Of a stretch of 29,641 nucleotides of DNA, positions 4,128 to 28,928 are shown piece after piece. Each line of letters starts with the position of its first letter. The first letter of the stretch is position 1. This DNA comes from a virus: IMG/VR virus record IMGVR_UViG_3300049812_004136, positions 1 to 29,641 of that record. One strand, given 5' to 3'. Below the pieces are notes generated by a model. It searched no databases, was not told where the DNA came from, and saw nothing but the letters and a program-made list of their open reading frames with translations. Both the position numbers and the translations under genes were made by a program.

Positions 4128-4649
4128 CTATCTCAAAAATTCCTTGTAGTCCAAACTGTATTTAACAGGGTCAATTTGATGCACATCTAATAAATGAAGT
4201 ACAAGACTACTCACGGAAGATCCTCGTCCAACCCCTGTCACTATGTTGTGTGTTTTACATGTTTGCATTAGATAACACAAAAATTTTAACACATTAACCA
4301 TTTTCCTTTTTTTAAATTGTTCTAGTTCTTCTATTAATCTATTTGTATAAGCACTTGATGTTAAATTTTTACTGACAAGCAATTCTGACAAAAACTTTTC
4401 TATATCCATTTTTTTATACTGTTCTGGCATATGCCATGTGTTTGCTTTACTTTCATGGAATGTGTCTGCACTTTCCTGTATAGGCTCCACAACATTTTTA
4501 GCCGGAACGTCAAAATAATTTGCAAACTGATTATATTTTTGTGTTTCCAAATTTGCAAAGTCACAATGATCTATGTTTTGTCCAGAGTACATCATGTCAA
4601 GTATTTCATTTACTGTGAACATTACTTGTCCATATTCGTTAGTGTTCAT
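4128..4649 (-). CDS. DNA polymerase III alpha-like fragment (no catalytic Asp pair)
   Basis: The 173-aa product resembles one segment of bacterial DnaE, the replicative polymerase alpha subunit. Residues ~73-173 follow the DnaE order: MPEQYKKMDIEKFLSEL, then RLIEELEQF, then VGRGSSVSSLVLHLL and IDPVKYSLDYKEFL, matching GPGRGSAAGSLVAY-L and DPL-Y-LLFERFL. In DnaE the catalytic PDxDxDF loop comes directly after; here the protein stops at FLR. It therefore has the nucleotide-contacting GRGS segment but neither the catalytic aspartates nor the PHP domain. It overlaps the upstream gene by four bases (ATGA), so it is part of the phage operon and not a random remnant. Role unknown. Confidence 0.75.
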   Translation of the reverse strand: MNTNEYGQVMFTVNEILDMMYSGQNIDHCDFANLETQKYNQFANYFDVPAKNVVEPIQESADTFHESKANTWHMPEQYKKMDIEKFLSELLVSKNLTSSAYTNRLIEELEQFKKRKMVNVLKFLCYLMQTCKTHNIVTGVGRGSSVSSLVLHLLDVHQIDPVKYSLDYKEFLR

Positions 4650-5203
4650 CTACCACCCTGTATAATTTTAAATTTATCATTATCATCAGTTATTGTAAAG
4701 CCAAGTCGTTCCCATGTCAAGTCCTCTTTGGTAAAGTTACTAAATCTTGGACTCTTATCTTTCCACCATGGATTATTAACAGTTGACGAATGCAATAAAT
4801 CATTCTCGGGACTGCTGTCTGAAATAATGAATCTTAAGTTTTCGCCTTGCCAAGACTCAATTTCCAAAGTATCAACACGTAAGCAATCTCCTATCATTGC
4901 ATTTAACTTTGTGAACAAACATATACCAACCACTTGATCAACTGGTTTTTCGAAAAAATCAATGGCTAACGTGTTGAATTTTTCGAATAATTGATATTGG
5001 TTATTGTTATCAATGAATAAAGAATTTTGTAATATTTTGTTGAAAACATACTTAATTTTTTCGAAAGCAATATGTTGTTGTTTGGAATCCTCGGCAATCG
5101 GAGTCATGTGGATCTCCACGTCAGTGTCATTAGGCCATAATTTGTTTTGAACGTAAAGTGTATTGGTGAATCTAGTTCGCCATATCAGACCATCATCTAA
5201 CAT
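4646..5203 (-). CDS. Hypothetical phage protein, 185 aa
   Basis: No family is recognised. The 185-aa protein starts MLDDGLIWRTRFTNTLYV, has no signal peptide or membrane segment, and is rich in acidic residues, Asn and aromatic residues; the end (WERLGFTITDDNDKFKIIQGGR) looks like a small beta hairpin. It overlaps the upstream 77-aa gene by 11 bases and the polymerase-fragment gene by four, so it is probably translated in step with them. The position next to a polymerase fragment and clamp loader hints at replication, yet the upstream virion genes make that uncertain. Confidence 0.7.
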   Translation of the reverse strand: MLDDGLIWRTRFTNTLYVQNKLWPNDTDVEIHMTPIAEDSKQQHIAFEKIKYVFNKILQNSLFIDNNNQYQLFEKFNTLAIDFFEKPVDQVVGICLFTKLNAMIGDCLRVDTLEIESWQGENLRFIISDSSPENDLLHSSTVNNPWWKDKSPRFSNFTKEDLTWERLGFTITDDNDKFKIIQGGR

Positions 5204-12653: not shown

Positions 12654-14573
12654 ATGATGAATGTTTATCTTTCACAGTTTTGTATAGATACTCCTGAAGG
12701 ATCCGCTAGAGAATTTTTGTATTTTCCATATAGTGTTGGAGTTATTTGGTCATATGCATTAACCAAAGCAAAGATCAGACAGAATATGCAACTAAAAGAA
12801 TTTTTAATAAAGAAGGAGAACATACAGGATGTTGTTGAGGGACTAGATAATCCTGCTATTTTTGGATTTAATTCTGTTGTTTGGAATCATGAATACAATT
12901 TAAAGTTAGCACAATGCGTTAAAGAAAGGTATCCAAACTGTGTGATAATTTTTGGAGGAGCAAGTGTCAAATATCAGGATGAAGAGTTTTTGAGACAATA
13001 TAAATTTATTGACTATGCAATTTATCGTGAAGGTGAAATAGCATTTAGCAATTTGTTATTACACACGCTAGGAGAAGATTTAGATAACAGTGGCATTGGC
13101 TATATAAAAGATGGAAAATTTATTACAGCACCAGCAACAAGAATGGCTGACATAGATGATATTCCAAGTCCATATACAACCGGATTGTTTGACTATCTAG
13201 TAGAAAAGTATGAAGGCACTAACGTTGTTTTGAACGCTGTAGTTGAAACCAATAGAGGTTGTCCTTTTGGTTGTACATTTTGTGATTGGGGCAACGGAGC
13301 TTTTGGTAAAATTAAAAAAGGTGGTATGCACAGAGTGAAAGGCGACTTCGAATGGTTGGCCAAAAAGAAAATTGAATACATTACTAATGCAGATGCAAAT
13401 TTTGGTATATTCAAAGATAGAGATGTAGAAATAACAAAATATATGATCGAACTTAAAAACAAATACAATTATCCTCAAATTTTTAATACATCATGGAACA
13501 AAGTTTTTTCAGTACAGATGGTTGAGATAGCCAAAATGCTTAGTGAGGCCGGAATGATGAGAAGGTTCATGGGATCTTTTCAATCTCTAAATGAACTTAC
13601 AAATAAGTCAATAAAAAGGAAAAATATTTCGATGGACAATTTTTTCCAAGTATATGAAGCCTGCAAAAAAAATAATATTACAATCAGTACAGAGTTTATG
13701 TTGCCTTTACCTGAAGAAACTTATGATTCATTCATGGACACACTTGAAAGATTTTACGAAGCAGACATTAACACAGTTGTTAATATATTAAGTATTTTGC
13801 CTAACTCTGAGATGAATGATCCCGAATATAGGAAAAAATATGGCTTAATCACGCAAATGTCTCCTGTGAAAGATTCGCCATATGCTACAGAATATCACGA
13901 AATGGTGATTGGTACTAACACTATGTCAGTAGAAGAATTTGAGAAAGCAAATATAATTAGATTTTTGTTAGAAGTTTTGCATGCCGCTGGATTTTGTGAC
14001 ATAATTTCAAGATTTATTGCAAAACAAAAAATGTGTAAAACTACAAAAATTTATGAAGACCTTTATGACTATTTTCTTTTTAGACCAAAGTCAGTTCTAT
14101 ATAAGCATTTCATTATACTTGTTGATAATGTTAAAAAGCAATTTGTACAAAAAATGCAAGGCACACAGATCAAATGGCCGATGTTTTCTGACATTGGAGA
14201 TAAAAATAGAAAAAAATTATATCAAGAACTGAAAGAATTTGTAGCATCATATGGATTTGAAGAAAGTATATGTAATGATGTTATTATATTGCAAAATGCC
14301 AAACAAAAACATTTTGGTCAAAAAGAAAATTATGATATAACCACCAGTTGTAACATATATGAATACATTGCAAATGACGAGCCTCTAAAGGAAGGTAGAA
14401 ATGTGTACCATATTTCAAACGGTGGCGTGGATAAAAAACATAAGGTTTACAGCGACTTCATGATATCATGCAGGTTCAATCAGAATTGGCAAACTAAAGT
14501 TGAAAATAAAAGTTATTTGACTGAAAAACTTGTGCCACAGCCACAACTAGAGTGTGCGTTGGGATTGTCATAG
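12654..14573 (+). CDS. B12-binding-domain radical SAM enzyme, 639 aa
   Basis: Residues ~1-140 resemble the Rossmann-like B12-binding domain found before many radical SAM enzymes (AIFGFNSVVWNHE, CVIIFGGASVKY, DYAIYREGE), but the classical DxHxxG cobalamin loop is not seen. The radical SAM core follows, with the 4Fe-4S motif CxxxCxxC as Cys203, Cys207 and Cys210 (RGCPFGCTFCDWG). Residues ~430-639 are an extra C-terminal part of unknown role. Such proteins methylate or rearrange unactivated carbons; the substrate here is unknown. ATG-ATG at 12654 leaves the start uncertain by one codon. Its last 61 bases overlap the opposing A-type Fe-S carrier gene. It stands alone on the plus strand. Confidence 0.85.
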   Translation: MMNVYLSQFCIDTPEGSAREFLYFPYSVGVIWSYALTKAKIRQNMQLKEFLIKKENIQDVVEGLDNPAIFGFNSVVWNHEYNLKLAQCVKERYPNCVIIFGGASVKYQDEEFLRQYKFIDYAIYREGEIAFSNLLLHTLGEDLDNSGIGYIKDGKFITAPATRMADIDDIPSPYTTGLFDYLVEKYEGTNVVLNAVVETNRGCPFGCTFCDWGNGAFGKIKKGGMHRVKGDFEWLAKKKIEYITNADANFGIFKDRDVEITKYMIELKNKYNYPQIFNTSWNKVFSVQMVEIAKMLSEAGMMRRFMGSFQSLNELTNKSIKRKNISMDNFFQVYEACKKNNITISTEFMLPLPEETYDSFMDTLERFYEADINTVVNILSILPNSEMNDPEYRKKYGLITQMSPVKDSPYATEYHEMVIGTNTMSVEEFEKANIIRFLLEVLHAAGFCDIISRFIAKQKMCKTTKIYEDLYDYFLFRPKSVLYKHFIILVDNVKKQFVQKMQGTQIKWPMFSDIGDKNRKKLYQELKEFVASYGFEESICNDVIILQNAKQKHFGQKENYDITTSCNIYEYIANDEPLKEGRNVYHISNGGVDKKHKVYSDFMISCRFNQNWQTKVENKSYLTEKLVPQPQLECALGLS

Positions 14574-14833
14574 GTGAAATAGGAACCAAATATTTCTTGT
14601 TTGTAATCAATTTTAGTGCCTAAAACAAACATTTCACAGCGTTCATCCACCAGCACTTTTACTTCTCCGAAGGCTAATTCGTGGTCACGGTCCTTTTTTT
14701 CTTCGGTTACATCCATTTGATAGTTGAATCCAGCACATCCGCCACCTTTGACGCCAAATCTGATGTATGGTTTATTGTTAGATTCACAAACCTCTTTCAT
14801 TTTTGCAATAGCAGGAACGGTCACTTCAATCAT
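14513..14833 (-). CDS. iscA-like: A-type Fe-S cluster carrier (IscA/ErpA/HesB family)
   Basis: The 106-aa product is a full-length A-type carrier, which accepts an iron-sulfur cluster and passes it to target enzymes. The three cluster ligands are in place: Cys33 in GGGCAGF and Cys97/Cys99 in SSCGCG, matching the C-x(63-65)-C-x-C pattern of the family. It starts at the ATG at 14833, eight bases after the SufT-like gene, as the last gene of an operon with Nfu and SOD. Its last 20 codons lie within the 3' end of the convergent radical SAM gene. A-type carriers are known in some marine phages; joined to Nfu and SufT it suggests a real maturation pathway. Confidence 0.92.
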   Translation of the reverse strand: MIEVTVPAIAKMKEVCESNNKPYIRFGVKGGGCAGFNYQMDVTEEKKDRDHELAFGEVKVLVDERCEMFVLGTKIDYKQEIFGSYFTYDNPNAHSSCGCGTSFSVK

Positions 14834-14841
14834 AATAATAT

Positions 14842-15159
14842 TTACATGCCGAGATATAGTCTACCATCTTCACTAATATATTCTTGTGTCCAGGGTGGAG
14901 TGAAGGTTAGTTGCACTCTCACAGGAGAATGTCCTGCTTTCGTAACGGCTTGTTGAACCCATTGTGGCATCTCGCCAGCAACAGGACAGTTAGGTGCTGT
15001 CAGAGTCATTACTACGTCAGATGAGTTGTCCTCATTGACTCTTAGATCATATATTAGTCCAAGTTCAAAAATATCAATTGGGATCTCAGGATCATAAACT
15101 TTCCTTAATTCATCTACAATATAAGGATATTTTTTTTCAATTTGATCTCTGTCAATCAT
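14842..15159 (-). CDS. sufT-like: SufT/MIP18 (DUF59) Fe-S maturation protein
   Basis: A protein of 105 aa from the ATG at 15159, which overlaps the Nfu stop by eight bases; a GTG 21 bases earlier is a less likely start. It is a single MIP18/DUF59 domain: VYDPEIPIDIFELGLIYDL at residues ~21-39, then MTLTAPNCPVAGEMP with the conserved Cys58, then VRVQLTFTPPWT. The DPEIP and TxxxCP motifs are the hallmarks of SufT, PaaD and the eukaryotic CIA factor MIP18, which help to load clusters onto target proteins. Its place between Nfu and the A-type carrier supports a SufT-like role over a PaaD-like one. Confidence 0.9.
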   Translation of the reverse strand: MIDRDQIEKKYPYIVDELRKVYDPEIPIDIFELGLIYDLRVNEDNSSDVVMTLTAPNCPVAGEMPQWVQQAVTKAGHSPVRVQLTFTPPWTQEYISEDGRLYLGM

Positions 15160-15727
15160 GATCGGTTGATCTGACACCACGAACTTCAGGAATGTAATGC
15201 TTCATCATATTTTCAATGCCTGACTTCAAAGTTGCTGTAGAACTTGGACATCCTTGACAGGCTCCTTGCATTTCCAACCATATCCATCCATCTACATATT
15301 CATTGAATATTATGTCTCCGCCATCCATTGCAACAGCGGGCCTTATTTTAGTATCAAGTAATTCTTTGATCTTTTTGACCACATCAGAATCAGTGCTTTT
15401 TATAGCGTGTTTATCTTCAACAACAGTTTTTTTATACTGCTGTTCCATAATTAAAGGATCATTGGTTGTAAACTGTTCAATGATTGCCCCCATTATAGCA
15501 GGCTTCAGCATAGTCCATGTTGTTGAATCACTTTTACTGATTGTTATAAAGTCTTCGCCATAAAAAACACTTTCTACGCCTTTTATTTCAAAAAGTTTTT
15601 GTGCTAACAATGAATTACCAGCACTGGTTTTGTCTTGATAGAACTGCGTGCCTTTTTCCATAACAGTCTTTCCAGGAAGGAACTTGAGTGTTGCAGGATT
15701 AGGCGTTGGTTCTATCTGAACAAACAT
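15152..15727 (-). CDS. nfu: Nfu-type Fe-S scaffold/carrier
   Basis: The 191-aa protein has the two-domain layout of alphaproteobacterial and mitochondrial Nfu1: an Nfu N-terminal domain (residues ~1-90, start MFVQIEPTPNPATLKFLPG) and a NifU C-terminal domain (~105-180) with the cluster-binding CxxC as Cys157 and Cys160 in GACQGCPSS. The IRPAVAMDGGDI segment before it is also standard. It would hold a 4Fe-4S cluster bridged in a dimer and deliver it to clients. The ATG overlaps the SOD stop as TAATG (15725-15729), and its own end overlaps the SufT-like start, so the three are coupled. Length is normal; there is no sign of decay. Confidence 0.93.
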   Translation of the reverse strand: MFVQIEPTPNPATLKFLPGKTVMEKGTQFYQDKTSAGNSLLAQKLFEIKGVESVFYGEDFITISKSDSTTWTMLKPAIMGAIIEQFTTNDPLIMEQQYKKTVVEDKHAIKSTDSDVVKKIKELLDTKIRPAVAMDGGDIIFNEYVDGWIWLEMQGACQGCPSSTATLKSGIENMMKHYIPEVRGVRSTDHD

Positions 15728-16359
15728 TATGCTTCCAGTAGTCTAGATTCAATAAATTTGTAGTTGATCAATTCATTGATTACTCTAGTTAGATGTTCTT
15801 TACGATCATTTTTGTAATCCAAATAATATGAGTGTTCCCACACATCAAATGCCGCAAGAATATCAACATCTTCGCCAACAGGATTATCCGCATTGGGATA
15901 AGTTTTAAATTTTAAATCTCCTTTTTCAAGAACTAGATATACCCAACCAGAGCCAAATCTTTTCATGCCTGCATCAATAAATGCTTCTTTGAATTTGTCC
16001 ATTGAGTCAAAGTCGTCTTCAATTTTATCTTGCAATTCTTGTGACGGCTCTTCGTAGTCTGGAGTTAATGATTGGAAGTATATTATATGATTAAAATTTT
16101 GTCCTGCGTTGTTGAATATTGCTTGATCGTTATCTCTTGAGTCAATAATAATTTGTTTTAGACTTTTATTTTCATATTCTGTTCCTTTAATAAGATCATT
16201 TAGTTTATCAACATATCCGGAATGATGCTTTCCATAGTGTAAGTCAATAGTATCTCGGCTTATTACAGGCTCAAGATCTTTCCGATCATATGGCAAATCC
16301 ATTAGCATAAACTTACCACCGTTGACGTTTACGTCATCTGCTACTTGATCTAGTTTCAT
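15727..16359 (-). CDS. sodB: Superoxide dismutase, Fe type
   Basis: The 210-aa protein is an iron/manganese superoxide dismutase. All four metal ligands are present: His41 (LHYGKHHSGYV), His91 (FNNAGQNFNH), Asp172 and His176 (FDVWEHSYYLDY). Gln87 in the NNAGQ helix is the position used by the Fe-type enzymes. GSGWVYLV and the C-terminal helix are intact. About 18 residues precede the usual N-terminus; I keep the ATG at 16359 because it forms a TAATG overlap with the AT-hook gene, but ATGs at residues 18 or 20 are possible. No export signal, so it acts in the host cytoplasm. Its place in front of Fe-S genes fits protection of clusters. Confidence 0.93.
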   Translation of the reverse strand: MKLDQVADDVNVNGGKFMLMDLPYDRKDLEPVISRDTIDLHYGKHHSGYVDKLNDLIKGTEYENKSLKQIIIDSRDNDQAIFNNAGQNFNHIIYFQSLTPDYEEPSQELQDKIEDDFDSMDKFKEAFIDAGMKRFGSGWVYLVLEKGDLKFKTYPNADNPVGEDVDILAAFDVWEHSYYLDYKNDRKEHLTRVINELINYKFIESRLLEA

Positions 16360-17602: not shown

Positions 17603-17630
17603 ACTATAACATTACTTGATTAATTGTCAA
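17603..17630 (-). promoter_or_regulatory. Sigma70 promoter of the UV endonuclease
   Basis: Minus-strand TTGACA (17625-17630) and TATAGT (17603-17608) with a 16-bp spacer. The -35 overlaps the stop codon of the PP-loop gene. The -10 ends five bases before the ATG at 17597, with no ribosome site, so the transcript should be leaderless. Confidence 0.7.
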
Positions 17631-18802
17631 GGTGAAATGTCAAATCCTTCTGGAAACAACTCGTCCACAGTTGATACCAAACCATTTTTTAAATTGATAA
17701 ATGGGCCAAATACTCCCACTGTGCCAAGTTCAGGCCTTCCACCGTTGAACCATTTACCATCTCCTAATAACGATAATTCATGCATGGTCCTATGCCATTT
17801 GTTAAAACTTGTGATATCGTCATTTATTATGTTGCTTATGGCAATCTTCTCTTTATTGTTTCTGCAAAAGACTTTTTCACTGCGTGATTCATTTATTTTT
17901 ACATTTGACATAGTTGCCTGCAACGCAGTTCCGTCAAATTTAGTAAACATTTTTGAGGGGAAGGCACCATGTCCGTCCAACCTACCTGCATTAAGATTAT
18001 AAAAATGTTCATACTTTTCCTCTCCTAAACATACTTTGTTCCAATCCGCATAGGGAACATATTTTTCAATTGCATGTTTTAACATATGTGCCTGTTTAGA
18101 ACACACTTGTGGATCATCGTAAAAAAAATTACACCAATCACTTTCTTTATTATCCTCGTATTTTATTTCTACATCTAAAAAATAAACAAACCATTGTCCT
18201 TTGTAATACATTATTCTTGGCTTATCTATCCCTTGTAGGTCAACAGTTTTTCCATTGCCTTTATATAGGTCTGTATTTTCTAGCCAATGATTAAGACGGA
18301 AATGAAATGCTGTTTTATTATTAGTTTTGTCAGCAAGATCCTCAAACCAATATGGATTGGAGTAAAAATTATGATAATCACCATAAGTTGGTTTAACTAT
18401 TTTTATATTTGTTTTTTGTAATTTATTTTTATAATGTTTTAAAAAAGGAATAGCATGTTGGTTAATCTCATAATCAGCATCTTCTATGCCAGACTTTAGG
18501 ACAATAACTTCATCTACATGTATATCATTTAGTATAAATGATTCAAGGACAGTTCTACTGTCACAACCTCCCGAATAAAAAATCCTTACAGTATCATACT
18601 TTTGGCGCAAGTACAGGGCATGAGATTTACATAGTGATGACCAACTTTGTTTAGGCTCATTGTGTAGTCCATAGTCTGTTAAAAAAGTAGGAATATTAAA
18701 ATGAATTGGAGCGCCAGTGTTTATGCTGTGTTGGACTGCGGTAAGTTTGTTACAGGTAGATAATTCTCCACAGGTGAAGTAAAATGCATTGTTTTTAAAC
18801 AT
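17627..18802 (-). CDS. PP-loop ATPase, asparagine-synthase-like, 391 aa
   Basis: A 391-aa enzyme with an ATP-pyrophosphatase loop, SGGCDS at residues 77-82 inside RIFYSGGCDSRTVLESFI. The 'SGGxDSR' form is closest to the synthetase domain of asparagine synthase and beta-lactam synthetase relatives, which adenylate a carboxylate and join it to an amine. The N-terminal 70 residues do not show the Cys2 glutaminase of asparagine synthase, so ammonia or another amine would be the donor. The C-terminal 250 residues match nothing I recognise. It overlaps the SDR gene by eight bases and so belongs to the DegT/2OG/SDR run, pointing to a biosynthetic tailoring step. Substrate unknown. Confidence 0.75.
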   Translation of the reverse strand: MFKNNAFYFTCGELSTCNKLTAVQHSINTGAPIHFNIPTFLTDYGLHNEPKQSWSSLCKSHALYLRQKYDTVRIFYSGGCDSRTVLESFILNDIHVDEVIVLKSGIEDADYEINQHAIPFLKHYKNKLQKTNIKIVKPTYGDYHNFYSNPYWFEDLADKTNNKTAFHFRLNHWLENTDLYKGNGKTVDLQGIDKPRIMYYKGQWFVYFLDVEIKYEDNKESDWCNFFYDDPQVCSKQAHMLKHAIEKYVPYADWNKVCLGEEKYEHFYNLNAGRLDGHGAFPSKMFTKFDGTALQATMSNVKINESRSEKVFCRNNKEKIAISNIINDDITSFNKWHRTMHELSLLGDGKWFNGGRPELGTVGVFGPFINLKNGLVSTVDELFPEGFDISP

Positions 18803-19382
18803 TGAGATATATATCTTTTATCTCAGGATTGGAGATAGCGTAAGATATATTTTTAACAACAGTGTCTACGTCCATTGTACTAGGCGGATATTCATATCCT
18901 TTTGTGTGTCTATGCATTTTAGTTTTCACCCTTCCTGGATGCACCGCACAAATATTAAAAAGTTCTGCGTCCTCACAGTGCCGAAGAATATCAAAAAATA
19001 TTTTTAAACAGTGTTTGGAAAGTCCATACATAGGATCTAAATTCTTTACCCTAGTTGTTACCATTGAACCAACGTATATAATATGTCCTTTATTATTTTG
19101 TTGGATATATTTTTTTGTTAGGAAAATATTATTAAGAAAATTAGTGTTCATTACACTGCAAATATCATCATGGCTAAATGAGGTCAGTTTATCTCTTATG
19201 CCAAGCAAAACTCCAGCATTAAGAATTAAAACATCCTGATTAGACAGATCTAATGTATCAAAGTTTTGCAAGTTCGAAAGATCAAAATTATCACGATTAA
19301 CTGTTTTAATTGTGTGACTGGCAAGATGTTTACACAACGCATGTCCAATGCCACTAGTTGTACCTGTGATAGTTATGTTCAT
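18795..19382 (-). CDS. Short-chain dehydrogenase/reductase, 195 aa
   Basis: A compact SDR enzyme. The NAD(P)-binding motif TGTTSGIG is at residues 6-13, NAG at 55-57, the catalytic Ser106 in YVGSM, and the Tyr119-x-x-x-Lys123 pair in MYGLSKHC; a PG motif follows at HPGRVKT. At 195 aa it is shorter than the usual ~250, with a trimmed C-terminus. It would oxidise or reduce a hydroxyl/keto group on an unknown substrate. It overlaps the genes on both sides (by four and eight bases), so it is part of the same operon as the 2OG oxygenase and PP-loop enzyme. A second SDR domain in the window is fused to a radical SAM enzyme. Confidence 0.88.
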   Translation of the reverse strand: MNITITGTTSGIGHALCKHLASHTIKTVNRDNFDLSNLQNFDTLDLSNQDVLILNAGVLLGIRDKLTSFSHDDICSVMNTNFLNNIFLTKKYIQQNNKGHIIYVGSMVTTRVKNLDPMYGLSKHCLKIFFDILRHCEDAELFNICAVHPGRVKTKMHRHTKGYEYPPSTMDVDTVVKNISYAISNPEIKDIYLNV

Positions 19383-20035
19383 TTTATTTCTATAACAGCG
19401 GGATCTTTGATCCAGTCGTGAAATGTATCCCCAGCTAAAGCACTAATTCTTACACGGTAGCCAGTATGGTGACTAATATTTGCTGTGCCATGTGGATATT
19501 TTAGAGCGGGCCAAGCCAAAATCCAACCAGCTTTCCAACCTGTAATGTTTGTGTTCCCCCATATCATAAACTCCCCTGGCCACCAATCAGTTAGAAATAT
19601 TAACATTCTATATCCATTTTTTATGACTTTTTTTGCATCTAGTCCACTACTTGCTAGGATATCCAAATGATATGGAATATAATGACATGACTTTTGTTCA
19701 GTAATAAAGATTTGTTTCTTTTCTTTTTCAAAGGGCACCATCTCAGCCATTTTTTTAATCATTGGTGTGTTTTCATTAGGTACCATCTTCCCATTGAATT
19801 TGTGGAAATCATAACCAAGATTCAACCATTCTTGCACCTGCATCTTTGTATATTCATTTTCCATATCTACAAAGGCTTTTTGTTCTGTAACAAAATGTTC
19901 CAATTCATGTTGCCATTCCCCAGTAAATTTAGGTTTAAAAATAATATCATTATCATCAGGAGCGTCATGGTCGAAATGATATAAATTTTGTTTTTTTGCA
20001 AAGTTAAACAAAGGCGTTTTTATAGTTTCTGACAT
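19379..20035 (-). CDS. 2OG-Fe(II) oxygenase-like protein, 218 aa
   Basis: This 218-aa protein has the arrangement of a 2-oxoglutarate/Fe(II)-dependent oxygenase: HxD as His123/Asp125 (IPYHLDILAS), then His182 in PHGTAN and Arg194 in HHTGYRVRIS, which would bind iron and the 2OG carboxylate. The intervening beta strands (MLIFLTDWWPGEFMIWG) fit the jelly-roll core. Members of this class are abundant in marine T4-like phages and hydroxylate proteins, nucleobases or small molecules; the target here is not known. It overlaps the aminotransferase gene by 16 bases and the SDR gene by four, so a joint pathway is likely. Confidence 0.75.
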   Translation of the reverse strand: MSETIKTPLFNFAKKQNLYHFDHDAPDDNDIIFKPKFTGEWQHELEHFVTEQKAFVDMENEYTKMQVQEWLNLGYDFHKFNGKMVPNENTPMIKKMAEMVPFEKEKKQIFITEQKSCHYIPYHLDILASSGLDAKKVIKNGYRMLIFLTDWWPGEFMIWGNTNITGWKAGWILAWPALKYPHGTANISHHTGYRVRISALAGDTFHDWIKDPAVIEIK

Positions 20036-21123
20036 AGATTTTTATCCTCCTCAGTTACATTTTTTTGAATAGTATCTACAACATAATCCATTTCATTCTT
20101 GGTTAACCATGGATGTGCTGGAATGCTGATAGCGTGTCTTTTGTAAAAGTCTGTCCATGGAAAGTTTTCATTTTTTTGTTTATCTCCAAACACTTCGGTC
20201 TTGGCAAAATTATATGTGTAATGCAACTGGCACTCGATGTCTTGTGCCAACAATTTGTCTCTAAATTTATACTTGTCCTGTACAAAAATAACGTACTTGT
20301 GATAGTTTGGAGTTGTATATGAAGTGGTTGGCCTGATTGCAATTTTTTCGTTATTAAAACACTTGTCATAATGATCAAAAACATTTCTCCTTTTGATTTG
20401 CCAGTCAGAAAACCGTTCCAAACTGGTCAACACCTGTGCAGCTTTGTCTTCCTGTGGTTGACTGTTGATGCCTATTTCTTGAATACTGGTGCCAACATCT
20501 CTATTTTTGTATCCATTCCTCCTCATAAGATAAATTTTTTGTGCAAGATTGTCATCGTCACAAAGTATAGCTCCGTATGTCCCAAAGATAGGACAGTTCT
20601 TATTGGTTGAAAAACTAATTATACTGGCTTCGCCTAACTTAACATTTTGTACCCCTTTGTATAAAGTTCCGAAACTTTGAGCGGAATCATTTAACACAGG
20701 CACATCAATGTTAGATATTTTATCATAATCGAAACTATCACCATACAAACCAGTAACAAGCAAATGATCAATTGGTCTATCTATTTGGACACTTTGTTGT
20801 CCGTGTCTATCAATATCAAAGAACACGGGTTGAGCCTGCAATGCCATTATTGGCATGACTGTTGCTGGACAAGAAAAATTTGTGCATCCAACTTTATCGC
20901 CTGCTTTTACTCCTTTTGCCATTAACATTAATTGTATTGCTGATGTGCCGCTATGGGTCAAAAATGCATGTTTACGTCCAGTCATTTCGCATAATTTTTG
21001 TTCAGCTTGAAGACAAAAATCTCCTTCGAAATGTGTCGTTCCTTGATATATTTGTTTTAGTCTAGCGTCAAGCGTCACTTGTATATCGTTGTAGATTCTA
21101 TCAGTGCTTACAATTTTTATCAA
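20020..21123 (-). CDS. DegT/DnrJ/EryC1/StrS-type PLP aminotransferase
   Basis: The 367-aa protein belongs to the DegT family of PLP enzymes, which transaminate keto-sugars or cyclitols. I choose the TTG at 21123 as start (MIKIVSTDRIYND): it overlaps the TctC stop by four bases and has GGGG nine bases upstream; an in-frame TTG 15 bases earlier is less likely. The PLP lysine is Lys175 in SFSTNKNCPIFGTYGAIL, and Asp146 in VLNDSAQSFG pairs with the pyridine nitrogen. GTSAI at residues 59-63 binds phosphate. Residues HYTYNFAKTEVF and IPAHPWLT near the end fit the family. Context with SDR and 2OG genes suggests aminosugar or related biosynthesis. Confidence 0.85.
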   Translation of the reverse strand: MIKIVSTDRIYNDIQVTLDARLKQIYQGTTHFEGDFCLQAEQKLCEMTGRKHAFLTHSGTSAIQLMLMAKGVKAGDKVGCTNFSCPATVMPIMALQAQPVFFDIDRHGQQSVQIDRPIDHLLVTGLYGDSFDYDKISNIDVPVLNDSAQSFGTLYKGVQNVKLGEASIISFSTNKNCPIFGTYGAILCDDDNLAQKIYLMRRNGYKNRDVGTSIQEIGINSQPQEDKAAQVLTSLERFSDWQIKRRNVFDHYDKCFNNEKIAIRPTTSYTTPNYHKYVIFVQDKYKFRDKLLAQDIECQLHYTYNFAKTEVFGDKQKNENFPWTDFYKRHAISIPAHPWLTKNEMDYVVDTIQKNVTEEDKNLCQKL

Positions 21124-21929
21124 TCGTACAATCCCCAACTAATGGCACCTTGTTGCGATCTTTCCAGATCGTTAAAATCAAATGAACTTATGATGAAAGA
21201 TTTTGATGTTATCCAATTTTTGTAATCTGGAGATAGTATCGCCGAACTTAGTAATAATCTAATAGATTGATCATGGTTTTTAGTAAGCCAATAAGCATGT
21301 TGCTGGATATTTTTATATTCGTAGTGTGTTAGCACATCTTTCATTGGCGTAATATTTTGCATTCCAAAATCGTCAGTGACAGCAAAACATGATCCTTCTG
21401 GAAGTTTTTTAAGTTTAGACATGCTAATTGCAATGTAATCTATTTCTCCAGAAACAAAACCAAGCACCAAATCTCCACTGTTTCTATAAGGGATAGGCTG
21501 TACCTCTTTGCCCAAAGCTTCTTCCAAACTAATGAATATATCAATAGGCCATGATGCACTATGTCCTATTTTAATTTTTGTAGCACCAAACTGATTGTAT
21601 TTTGTAGAACAAAACACCACAGGTGCAGTATATTCCAACACGCCGAATGTGGATTTAGTAGGTTGTAAATTTTCTTTAATGTTAGCACTATCAATCCATG
21701 GCATAATGACTGGTTCTTTTGCTGTCCTAAACAATTGGGCCGCTTTGCTCAAATTGCCTGCGTTTATTAAATTAACTTCATATCCCATATCCACAAGTGT
21801 GTCATGCATTAGCATTGATCTTGTATGGAACGTTCCGCCAGCTTTTCCACTGACTATAATATTAATAGTATCAGCCACAGCACTTAAACTGAACATCAAC
21901 ATTAACATCAAATAATATATTTTTTTCAT
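21120..21929 (-). CDS. tctC-like: TctC-like periplasmic solute-binding protein
   Basis: The 269-aa protein is an extracytoplasmic binding protein of the tripartite tricarboxylate transporter (TctC/Bug) type. The ATG at 21929 has AGGAG nine bases upstream; an upstream in-frame TTG is not needed. A signal peptide covers residues 1-20 (MKKIYYLMLMLMFSLSAVAD). The mature part shows the TctC order: VSGKAGGTFHTRSMLMHDTL near the start, and YRNSGDLVLGFVSGEIDYIAIS, equivalent to the 'Y.G.....L.gG.vd' segment. It follows the TctA gene after a structured 120-nt leader, so the two may be expressed at different levels. Substrate unknown; family members bind citrate, other carboxylates or nicotinate-like acids. 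Confidence 0.82.
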   Translation of the reverse strand: MKKIYYLMLMLMFSLSAVADTINIIVSGKAGGTFHTRSMLMHDTLVDMGYEVNLINAGNLSKAAQLFRTAKEPVIMPWIDSANIKENLQPTKSTFGVLEYTAPVVFCSTKYNQFGATKIKIGHSASWPIDIFISLEEALGKEVQPIPYRNSGDLVLGFVSGEIDYIAISMSKLKKLPEGSCFAVTDDFGMQNITPMKDVLTHYEYKNIQQHAYWLTKNHDQSIRLLLSSAILSPDYKNWITSKSFIISSFDFNDLERSQQGAISWGLYD

Positions 21930-22050
21930 TATCAATGTCTCCTAATAAAAATGCTAGTGTGGATTCCACATACGGCTCGGCCTGCCCATTTAAGCACAGA
22001 GGTCGATGTTTGTGCCGACGTCATTGAATATGGCGTTGCAAATTTATTTA
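21930..22050 (-). promoter_or_regulatory. GC-rich structured leader upstream of tctC-like gene
   Basis: This gap between the TctA and TctC genes is much richer in GC than its flanks. On the minus strand it can form TCGGC/GCCGA pairing across 32 bases (21977-21981 with 22014-22018), an inner or alternative GCACA/TGTGC stem, and a near-perfect hairpin TGTGGATTCCACA (21958-21970), followed by the AGGAG site. A GATAAATA box at 22045-22052 could start the transcript. The mutually exclusive stems are typical of a switching leader, but no known riboswitch class is recognised. Confidence 0.45.
21932..22024 (-). CDS. Possible 30-aa leader peptide
   Basis: An ATG at 22024 opens a 30-codon frame (MTSAQTSTSVLKWAGRAVCG...) that covers the whole structured leader and stops with a TGA two bases before the tctC ATG, reading through its ribosome site. 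Such an arrangement would allow translational coupling or attenuation. There is no ribosome site before this ATG and the frame may be chance, so I give it low weight. Confidence 0.25.
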   Translation of the reverse strand: MTSAQTSTSVLKWAGRAVCGIHTSIFIRRH

Positions 22051-22052
22051 TC
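22045..22052 (-). promoter_or_regulatory. GATAAATA box, possible promoter of tctC leader
   Basis: Minus-strand GATAAATA overlaps the stop codon of the TctA gene. It resembles the AATAAATA late boxes, but it would give an mRNA with a ~110-nt leader, not a leaderless one. Confidence 0.35.
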
Positions 22053-23367
22053 AAGTCAAAATATTATAACTAACAACTATTATTGATTCAAGTTTTTTCT
22101 GTATTAAAAAAATAAAAATAAACGGAAGTAAGTCATACTGTCTGAAACACCATCCAAACACACTTGCAATTGTTAAACATAAAAAATAATAAAAATATTG
22201 TCCTGATAATGAGGCCACAAAAAATACCGAAAACAGTAAAACAAAAATTATAACAAACTTTACATAATCCTTGCTGTAGGATAAAAATTTATGCAAATAA
22301 CCACTAAGTGGCCAACTTACCATAAGTCCTATAAACATTGAAAGAAATACACTTATGGCAATGATATAATGTATATGTAAGTCAAGTATTACCCTCCAGT
22401 TTATTTCCAACAAATTCATTTCTACAATTGACAGTAATAGTGCTTCTGAACCTGTGATAGGGATTCCAAGTATTAACAGTGGCAACAACGTAACTAAAAT
22501 TGCACTATTATTAGATGCTTCTACACTTATTAGAGACCTATAACTTGGCCCTTTGTTTGTATCAATAGATTTAGAGACTCGATGCGACAAATTTGTTGCT
22601 AAAACAGTTGATACACCAGGCACTAGCCCGCATATACATCCTATTGATGTGCCCAACATACTAAATTTAAAATTTTTAATAAACAACAAGATATCACTTT
22701 TATAATTGGTTTTTACACGTTTTGCAATTGCAAAATTATATTGTGTAAAAATGTGTGGAATAACAAGCAATCCTATTATCACAGGAAAAATAGGAACGCC
22801 AGTTTGTAGGTTTATATCACCAAACGACAAAAAGTAAGATCCAGTAAATTCATTGAATCCAATCTTTCCTATCAAATATCCAAAACACATGAACAAAAAT
22901 GTATAATACCACTTGTTTTTGGAAGCAAACAAAAAAACTAACAATGCAAAACTAAACACAATCAATTGGTTCGTTGTTTTGTAAAACCATTGAAATATAT
23001 CGTCATAGATCGGAAACAAACATACTAAAAATAATAGTGTTAATATGCCTGCACAGAAACTTGATAAACTGGTGCCAATTATCGCTGTGTGTCCTTTGCC
23101 CTGTTTTGCCAATGCGTGTCCTTCAATCACAGCAGGCACACTGTTTGCTTCTCCAGGAAGTCCAAAATGTATTGCAGTGACGCTTCCTGTAAATTGAGCT
23201 AAGTTAGCTAGTCCAATATAAAAACAAATAAGTCCTATAAGATCTAAATTTATTAGATATGGATACATTACCATCAAAGAAACTAGTAGACCAGTTCCTG
23301 GTATAAGGCCTGCAACACTGCCAACCAAACAGCCTAAAATTGTGTTAATTAATGCTGACTCGACCAC
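22051..23367 (-). CDS. tctA-like: TctA-like membrane subunit of a TTT transporter
   Basis: A 438-aa integral membrane protein with about ten hydrophobic segments. It matches TctA, the large subunit of tripartite tricarboxylate transporters: GSVAGLIPGTG near residues 16-26, FTGSVTAIHFGLPGEANSV at ~59-77 followed by GHALAKQGKG, and the repeat of this pattern in the second half (GLVPGVSTVLATNL, VEASNNSAILVTLLPLLILGIP). The family is usually ~500 aa; this copy is ~25 residues short at the N-terminus and shorter in the loops, yet both signature repeats are whole. It starts at GTG 23367, overlapping the upstream gene by 19 bases. No TctB gene is found nearby. Confidence 0.87.
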   Translation of the reverse strand: MVESALINTILGCLVGSVAGLIPGTGLLVSLMVMYPYLINLDLIGLICFYIGLANLAQFTGSVTAIHFGLPGEANSVPAVIEGHALAKQGKGHTAIIGTSLSSFCAGILTLLFLVCLFPIYDDIFQWFYKTTNQLIVFSFALLVFLFASKNKWYYTFLFMCFGYLIGKIGFNEFTGSYFLSFGDINLQTGVPIFPVIIGLLVIPHIFTQYNFAIAKRVKTNYKSDILLFIKNFKFSMLGTSIGCICGLVPGVSTVLATNLSHRVSKSIDTNKGPSYRSLISVEASNNSAILVTLLPLLILGIPITGSEALLLSIVEMNLLEINWRVILDLHIHYIIAISVFLSMFIGLMVSWPLSGYLHKFLSYSKDYVKFVIIFVLLFSVFFVASLSGQYFYYFLCLTIASVFGWCFRQYDLLPFIFIFLIQKKLESIIVVSYNILT

Positions 23368-26925: not shown

Positions 26926-27211
26926 CTGATGCTAAAAAGCCATTATCATTGTACAAATTGGATATATCTACACTTTGTTCCCAATTCAATTGGTCTGGAT
27001 CTACACCGTTCATTTTGCCAAAAAACACCAGTAGTGATCTAATCACTTCGCCAAGTTCTCTAGAATCAATGATTGGATTGATGTCACATCCTGATTCGTG
27101 TGCATATTCTAGTAATAATTCTACAGCATCAAAAACTTGCATATCAGATTTCGTAAAATTTTGTTTTGGATTTTTTGGTTGTTTAAACTGAATTATTTTT
27201 GCTTTGGACAT
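26906..27211 (-). CDS. Hypothetical acidic phage protein, 101 aa
   Basis: A 101-aa acidic protein starting at MSKAKIIQFKQPKNP (ATG 27211; an adjacent ATG at 27214 is equally possible). A longer upstream extension in frame would lie within the radical SAM-SDR gene and shows no coding sense. The body is helical: FDAVELLLEYAHESG and LGEVIRSLLVFFGKMNG, then a short acidic tail. No family is recognised. It overlaps the end of the radical SAM-SDR gene by 29 bases and carries the -35 element of the next gene's promoter in its last codons. Confidence 0.65.
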   Translation of the reverse strand: MSKAKIIQFKQPKNPKQNFTKSDMQVFDAVELLLEYAHESGCDINPIIDSRELGEVIRSLLVFFGKMNGVDPDQLNWEQSVDISNLYNDNGFLASVDKDKD

Positions 27212-28928
27212 CATGTAATAAATTACAGTAAATTGTGATTTCGTCAACCACAGTATGATCTGCACACGATAGACACCAGTCAATTGCTCTCCTGATGTCA
27301 TCCATTACAATACCATTTCCTGTCCAATTAGATCTTTTTCTTGTAGTTTCATTGTCCATCCTATCCGGACTTATTAACGTGCATTTGAAACCTACTAAAT
27401 TTTGTTTAAATGCTTGTGTTATCTGTTTACTTGCATGTTGTAAAGCAGACTTTGCCACCCTATAAGTTTCAAACATAGGATCTGGCGCAACAACATGGTT
27501 TGCCGCTACACTGCCTATATTAATGATATAACCTTTTTTGTTATGGTCTTTCCATTGTTTGTATATCTCATGTAAAAGATTAACTTGTCCAAAATTCGCC
27601 CAAGGTTCATGTGGTGGACCATCAAATGCATTATTAATAAAAACATCATAATTTAAACTATCTATTGCTATTTTTTCGATGTCTTTTTGTGTAACAATAT
27701 TAAGTTTTGCACTAGTCCTGCTGACATCATCACCATTGTATTGTTCCTTTAGATGTTTACCCAATCCTTTTGTGCCACCAGTAATTAAAAATCTTTTATC
27801 CATTGTTATTTCATGTTGATCCCATACTTTGCTAAGTTTTTTTCCACATGTAAACGCACATTCAAATATTCTGCCATTATCTAAATTTTTATTCCAGCTG
27901 TCCACAAGATCGGTCCAAAAAGGATTTTGAAAAATTTCATCCAATGTATGATTGTTAATATTAAGTGAACTAGGGTTATGTGAATCTATAAAATTTTTAA
28001 CTTGATTGACTCCATTCACTGTGTGCAATTTATTGGAAGATGGTGTTATGCTAGGATCGTCAAAACGCATATCATAAAGATTGTGTTCGAAAAAGTTACA
28101 TGGTAAAACAAGTCCTTCAGCAGTAATTGTTACTTTTTGGCCAACACAACTATCACATTTAATTGCAGTGCTATCAAAATAATTGTAAAGATTATCACCA
28201 TATTGTTTTTTCAAAATCTGCAAGTTGTTAACAGATCTATTTTTCTCACTATCAAGTGTAGTTGGTTCTAAGTAATATTGTAATTCTCCCTTTTTATCAT
28301 TAACTGGCCATTGGTCAAGTTCCTCCATTTTGCTTTGATCAACAAACCTGCCAGTTTTCCTAAAATTTATTTTTGAGAATCCAATCATTTTGGACTTTTG
28401 TTTAGCCTGATCGATTTGATGTTGATTGTGCTTAAACACAATATAGTTCCATTCTGCTATTCCACCCATTCTAATATAAGCAGATGCATTATCTATTATC
28501 TTTTCGAAGTTGGTATTTTTCCTATATACATGATTTGTATCTTGCAGTCCATCTATGTTAAAATCCACCCTGCCGTTCACGCCTATTATTTCAGCTAGAC
28601 TCATCCACCAATCTTCGTTATGAGCTGATCCATTGGTATGAATGTAGATGTATAATTTTTGACTTTTGGATCTAAAATCTGCAACTATGTCTAAAAAATT
28701 AGGATGTGTGATAGGATCACCATAACTGCCACAAAAAAATATTTGTCTAATATTTTTAACAAGATCAGTTTGAAAAGTATTTTTTATTACTTCAGGACTA
28801 AGATGGCAAAGCGGCATCTTTGGATTGACTTTGCCGCCTAAAATGTTTCTTGGACATTGAGGACATGCCGCATTACAGTGGGTGGTTATTCCTAGTTGGT
28901 ATTCCTTAATTGTGTTGATGTTAAACAT
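27183..28928 (-). CDS. Radical SAM - short-chain dehydrogenase fusion, 581 aa
   Basis: One open frame joins two enzymes. Residues ~1-370 are a radical SAM protein: CxxxCxxC as Cys18, Cys22, Cys25 (THCNAACPQCPRN), GSYGDPITHP near 68-76 for SAM binding, and further Cys (258, 261, 277, 357, 361) that look like a SPASM/twitch auxiliary cluster site. Residues ~376-570 are a complete SDR: TGGTKGLG at 383-390, NNA at 432-434, Ser473, Tyr489 and Lys493 (ETYRVAKSA). The junction, QHEITMDKRFLITGG, has a Met exactly where a free SDR would start. The ATG follows a TATAAT by five bases. Substrate unknown; the order suggests two successive steps on one molecule. Confidence 0.85.
   Translation of the reverse strand: MFNINTIKEYQLGITTHCNAACPQCPRNILGGKVNPKMPLCHLSPEVIKNTFQTDLVKNIRQIFFCGSYGDPITHPNFLDIVADFRSKSQKLYIYIHTNGSAHNEDWWMSLAEIIGVNGRVDFNIDGLQDTNHVYRKNTNFEKIIDNASAYIRMGGIAEWNYIVFKHNQHQIDQAKQKSKMIGFSKINFRKTGRFVDQSKMEELDQWPVNDKKGELQYYLEPTTLDSEKNRSVNNLQILKKQYGDNLYNYFDSTAIKCDSCVGQKVTITAEGLVLPCNFFEHNLYDMRFDDPSITPSSNKLHTVNGVNQVKNFIDSHNPSSLNINNHTLDEIFQNPFWTDLVDSWNKNLDNGRIFECAFTCGKKLSKVWDQHEITMDKRFLITGGTKGLGKHLKEQYNGDDVSRTSAKLNIVTQKDIEKIAIDSLNYDVFINNAFDGPPHEPWANFGQVNLLHEIYKQWKDHNKKGYIINIGSVAANHVVAPDPMFETYRVAKSALQHASKQITQAFKQNLVGFKCTLISPDRMDNETTRKRSNWTGNGIVMDDIRRAIDWCLSCADHTVVDEITIYCNLLHDVQSKNNSV

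Follow-up and report, generated by a model that had tools for sequence, protein, structure and literature searches.

A conserved viral gene pair for a TctA-family permease and a secreted, remotely TctC-like binding protein, found without TctB in phages

The best-known uptake genes of phages add one part to a host machine. In cells, the tripartite tricarboxylate transporters (TTT; TC 2.A.80; TctABC) that have been characterised all use TctB, which was essential in one tested case, and their TctA permease bears the repeat G-x3-G-x3-G-x2-P-G-x-G, duplicated in TM1 and TM7 (PMC5812351). In TctC, an AGGxxD loop binds the carboxylate via two waters (PMC5812351). A tctA domain of unknown role was described on SUP05 viral contigs in 2014 (PMC4164917) and mentioned again in a review (PMC6359870), and among phage-borne binding proteins cyanophage PstS is the nearest precedent (PMC2984593). 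We found no paper on a phage tctA/tctC pair in a search that lay largely outside subscription journals and preprints; one literature match, tctC in glacier phages, turned out to be a primer sequence.

Here we analysed an IMG/VR viral record of 29,641 bases (the window), in which a TctA-like protein with both signature repeats and a TctC-like protein with a clean signal peptide had been predicted amid phage genes. The gene at positions 22051-23367 on the minus strand encodes 438 aa from a GTG start, and its product is by sequence a TctA-family membrane protein, the short phage form, with about ten hydrophobic segments and a whole-length match to Pfam PF01970 that covers positions 2-416 of the 423 in the profile (E=6.7e-62) and scores 209.9 bits, the family cut-off being 28.9. 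The first signature repeat, GCLVGSVAGLIPGTG in TM1 (23290-23334, minus strand), has the published spacing complete, and the second, GTSIGCICGLVPGVS in TM7 (22609-22653, minus strand), has it complete except that the last Gly is replaced by Ser, so the predicted repeats are both present. Across the phage clade described below, G12, G16, G20, P23 and G24 of repeat 1 and G243, G247, P250 and G251 of repeat 2 are invariant, and other TctA core positions are conserved too. The window protein shares 22-25% identity with bacterial TctA and lacks about 22 N-terminal and about 45 C-terminal residues. Its shortness at the N-terminus, noted in the original prediction, is real, since upstream of the GTG, which is preceded by AGGA, the frame continues for 12 more codons with no start codon among them; this short N-terminus is a trait of the clade, not damage. 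A PDB sequence search for a TctA structure found none.

The neighbouring gene on the same strand (21120-21935) is listed with 271 aa and probably starts at the ATG at 21929 (269 aa), upstream of which lies AGGAG. Its product carries the signal peptide MKKIYYLMLMLMFSLSAVA (21873-21929, minus strand), recognised by eye from a hydrophobic segment and an AVA/D site, with cleavage read as MKKIYYLMLMLMFSLSAVA/D. Pfam, NCBIfam and PHROGs gave the protein no family, and the PF03401 (TctC) profile matched neither it nor any of 25 relatives, so that we call it TctC-like on the grounds of profile comparison, fold and partner. In hhalign, a 25-member profile gave a moderate match to bacterial TctC, with 77% probability across 247 columns. 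AlphaFold reached a pLDDT of 33 from the single sequence and 49 from a 25-sequence alignment, and the latter, low-confidence model matches type II binding proteins, BugE, TphC, TctC and Bug27 among them, with ABC-type receptors equally good. C109 and C183 are invariant in the binding protein. Designed PPR proteins, returned by phmmer as possible relatives, were repeat artefacts. Together with the signal peptide and the pairing with TctA, these comparisons suggest a secreted type II binding protein that is remotely TctC-like. The predicted signal peptide is borne out, and the protein is TctC-like by position and partner, at most a candidate member of that family.

Scanning viral contigs with a three-sequence TctA alignment as the query, we found a clade of short TctA proteins (about 420 aa) on 49 viral contigs, several of which are near-copies and not all independent. 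A binding protein of the window type is encoded about 0.1-2 kb downstream of the short TctA in 43 of these 49, and in five of the remaining six the contig ends no more than 830 bases from TctA. The sixth, L111, has directly downstream a gene for a 298-aa secreted protein that matches the window protein (BLASTP E=3e-7 in a single comparison), then a PP-loop gene homologous to that of the window (E=1e-18), and then 2OG-like and SDR-like genes whose homology to the window counterparts is weak or absent. The reverse search, with the binding-protein profile, returned 22 contigs, with TctA present in 18 and the other four cut. Most of the short clade shares a fixed gene order of 2OG-oxygenase-like, TctA, ATP-grasp-like and, on the opposite strand, binding protein. 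In addition, a broader TctA scan, of which the best 80 of 287 viral relatives were examined, revealed a second phage clade (about 475 aa) that makes up most of those 80 and comprises 56 contigs with 41 distinct TctA proteins. Here a gene for a secreted protein of about 350 aa follows directly after TctA, overlapping it by 3-39 nt in most cases, and the profile of this protein aligns with bacterial TctC at 97% probability. For both genes dN/dS was 0.05-0.33 in the pairs tested, the window's own TctA being without a close relative. The tctA and binding-protein genes are under purifying selection, and TctA and the binding protein form a conserved viral module: tctA/tctC-like pairs, which it had been proposed to look for on other viral contigs, occur on about a hundred contigs in two clades.

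The DNA carrying the pair is that of a phage and not of a host. The region recurs at 99.95-99.98% identity on two contigs from other metagenomes, one of which (G002, 48 kb) belongs to the same phage and reaches past the end of the window. The 114.8-kb sister phage G082 has a backbone in common with both flanks of the cassette, mostly at 70-94% protein identity nearby, and members of both phage clades have T4-type major capsid genes on the contig that carries TctA. The clamp loader is closest to those of Pseudomonas jumbo phages (56%), a match that does not fix a host. One reading that would have overturned the original prediction, namely that host DNA or an assembly artefact sits within a viral contig, might draw on the few contigs of the broad scan (L036, L041) whose TctA falls among cellular sequences and which may represent prophage or host DNA. 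For the window it is effectively refuted, and we give it a negligible chance, by the recurrence in two other metagenomes, the surrounding sister-phage backbone, the capsid genes of related contigs and the absence of a close cellular TctA homologue among the matches listed. In one scan of genome contigs, the best cellular TctA proteins among the matches listed came from many phyla and were mostly 24-29% identical, with E=6e-34 at best. A phylogeny against cellular homologues, also proposed at the outset, separated the window protein, L111 and 16 short phage TctA proteins from every cellular sequence in the tree by a branch with full SH-aLRT support, and placed the second phage clade among canonical TctA. 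The archaea were represented in this tree by one haloarchaeal plasmid TctA (L021), and the window and L111 form long branches, which weakens placement within it. The AU test did not reject a single origin for the phage TctA proteins as a whole (p=0.137), nor does the tree demonstrate one.

Several other genes of this phage are worth recording. Past the window end, G002 encodes a full TonB-dependent receptor (L013:1605-3482, minus strand; PF00593 E=2.3e-29, plus Plug), which sister phages retain at 34-62% identity; it is unusual for a phage to encode an outer-membrane receptor. We considered this receptor, 12 kb away, as a part of the module and rejected it, as it occurs in 1 of 50 TctA contigs and the sisters keep it without TctA. 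The same phage encodes a FecR-domain protein (L013:11781-13828, minus strand; PF04773 E=3.5e-9) beside a secreted protein with curlin-like repeats recognised by eye. Within the window, positions 14513-16359 hold an iron-sulphur run of A-type carrier (PF01521), FeS_assembly_P (PF01883) and Nfu/NifU scaffold (PF08712, PF01106), followed by an Fe/Mn superoxide dismutase. At 4128-5203, a 173-aa ORF matches part of DNA polymerase III alpha (PF07733 E=1e-13; PHROG DNA polymerase) and adjoins a 185-aa ORF without a match, perhaps reflecting a split polymerase. One ORF at 27183-28928 joins a radical SAM domain to a short-chain dehydrogenase domain, an unusual fusion.

Downstream of the binding-protein gene, four minus-strand genes lie head to tail and overlapping. 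The first, a DegT/DnrJ/EryC1 aminotransferase gene (20020-21138; PF01041 E=1.5e-53), overlaps the end of the binding-protein gene and is followed by genes for a 2OG-oxygenase-like protein (19379-20035; HxD...H by eye, 36% identical to the product of the same-place gene in sister phage G003), a short-chain dehydrogenase (SDR; 18795-19382; PF00106 E=8.2e-19) and a PP-loop (SGGxDS) ATPase-like protein (17627-18802), which has the L111 homologue noted above and whose motif is also found in L029 and L034. None of the 2OG-like, ATP-grasp-like and PP-loop-like neighbours received a significant family from Pfam and PDB profile searches, so their names rest on the motifs HxD...H, KPxxGSG with CNPR, and SGGxDS, respectively. 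At the cassette site, G082 is without the TctA, binding-protein, 2OG-like, SDR and PP-loop genes. G003 encodes a binding protein 87% identical to that of the window beside a DegT/2OG/SDR trio only 30-36% identical (L005:508-2936, plus strand, against window 18795-21138), with flanking genes at 86-95%; this divergence between conserved flanks indicates that the trio appears to have been exchanged en bloc between close phages. Given both sister phages, the cassette is an island that can be swapped while the phage backbone around it is conserved. We also observed in G082 an OpuAC-type, glycine-betaine-like binding protein (L233:14914-15921, minus strand; PF04069 E=2.8e-36), whose gene sits in a separate island that has no permease but contains PP-loop, 2OG-like and dehydrogenase-like genes, so phages of this group carry more than one binding-protein family.

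The absence of TctB, noted in the original prediction, was confirmed: the intergenic gap between tctA and the binding-protein gene is 115 bp, and PF07331 (TctB) found no TctB on the 48-kb contig G002 and scored above its cut-off on 0 of 50 contigs. Because TctB is poorly conserved, we additionally counted small ORFs with at least three hydrophobic segments within 4 kb of TctA, a crude measure calibrated on three true TctB proteins, and found them at 43 of 80 cellular loci but, in the phage clades, at 2 of 45 (one of the two being a piece of TctA) and 3 of 63, a large contrast; a divergent TctB elsewhere in the incomplete phage genome could escape detection. The window system is thus a TTT-like variant and not a full TTT, which includes the TctB subunit. 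One alternative is that the phage TctA and binding protein use a host TctB, or that the phage binding protein feeds a host TctAB, as is thought for cyanophage PstS. Such borrowing has a precedent in PstS, a phage binding protein carried without its permease (PMC2984593), and would agree with the orphan OpuAC-type protein of the sister phage, which has no adjacent permease gene, and with the essential role of TctB in a characterised TTT (PMC5812351). However, the binding protein of the phage clades comes together with a phage TctA and not alone, and phage and cellular TctA are 24-29% identical at best among the matches listed, so that a fit to host TctB is not obvious; we regard this alternative as rather unlikely. 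Of the two-part or host-completed transporter in the original prediction, the first form is supported, being implied by about a hundred contigs, and a need for host completion of a short TctA is not, since the short form is the rule in the clade and each has its own binding protein.

The pair is very probably a transporter. Phage-encoded envelope proteins often alter the envelope, for instance in superinfection exclusion, and a non-nutritional role of this kind, in which the membrane and periplasmic proteins change the envelope and, for example, exclude other phages, could find some support in enzyme neighbours that might modify surface glycans. Transport is a better fit to the TctA repeats and core positions conserved across the clade and to a partner whose modelled fold resembles solute-binding proteins, and we consider an envelope function very improbable. 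The reading we favour, and think reasonably probable, is a phage-borne two-component secondary importer of the TTT type that dispenses with TctB and whose solute feeds the cassette enzymes. In the host periplasm, the secreted binding protein would capture a small solute that probably bears a carboxylate; the short TctA permease of the inner membrane would receive this solute and move it inward with an ion gradient and no TctB. In the window, the imported solute would most likely feed the aminotransferase, the 2OG-oxygenase-like protein, the SDR and the PP-loop ATPase, and in most relatives a 2OG-oxygenase-like protein and an ATP-grasp-like ligase. We infer transport, its direction, the carboxylate cargo and the link to the enzymes, the carboxylate following only from the family (PMC5812351).

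The transporter might instead carry its cargo outward, exporting a product of the cassette, or take up a non-carboxylate such as an amino acid, amino sugar or opine-like compound. Consistent with this, the DegT, SDR and PP-loop or ATP-grasp-like enzymes look biosynthetic, amino-acid receptors are among the fold matches, and the window loop KAGGTFH keeps AGG and has His in place of the conserved TctC Asp of AGGxxD (PMC5812351), GGxxD being intact in L111 and L029. A secreted binding protein marks uptake in all known TTT (PMC5812351), however, and we judge this alternative improbable. Under import as we propose it, the recurrent company of PP-loop or ATP-grasp-like and 2OG-oxygenase-like proteins, names that are motif-based, suggests a cargo used as a building block in chemistry that the phage directs. 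More tentatively, and with distinctly less confidence, a stand-alone class of phage transporters (TctA and receptor without TctB, in at least two clades) may form the intake of a portable pathway whose PP-loop or ATP-grasp-like ligase joins the imported acid to an amine.

Taken together, these phages appear to bring permease and receptor jointly, as a conserved pair unlike the cellular TctA in the databases searched. The SUP05 contigs are similar in being marine viral contigs with a TctA-family gene, but that report gives a domain match only and does not describe a partner binding protein, the lack of TctB or a conserved cassette (PMC4164917). Cyanophage PstS is likewise a phage periplasmic binding protein thought to aid uptake during infection (PMC2984593, PMC3429862), but it is part of an ABC system and comes without its permease, whereas the window phage carries permease and receptor together. 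Archaeal stand-alone TctA also has no TctB and differs in reportedly being without TctC too (PMC5812351). If the phage pair does transport, infected cells would take up a solute chosen by the virus, and the pair would be the simplest form of a binding-protein-dependent TTT, making the role of TctB directly testable. Like TTT, it combines a TctA permease bearing both repeats with an adjoining gene for a secreted, probably type II binding protein. Unlike TTT, it is phage-encoded and without TctB, its TctA is short at both ends (about 420-440 versus about 500 aa) and has LGIPI where TTT has LGIPG, the binding protein of the window's clade is shorter than a typical TctC, and, in place of the order tctCBA, the binding-protein gene either follows TctA or converges with it.
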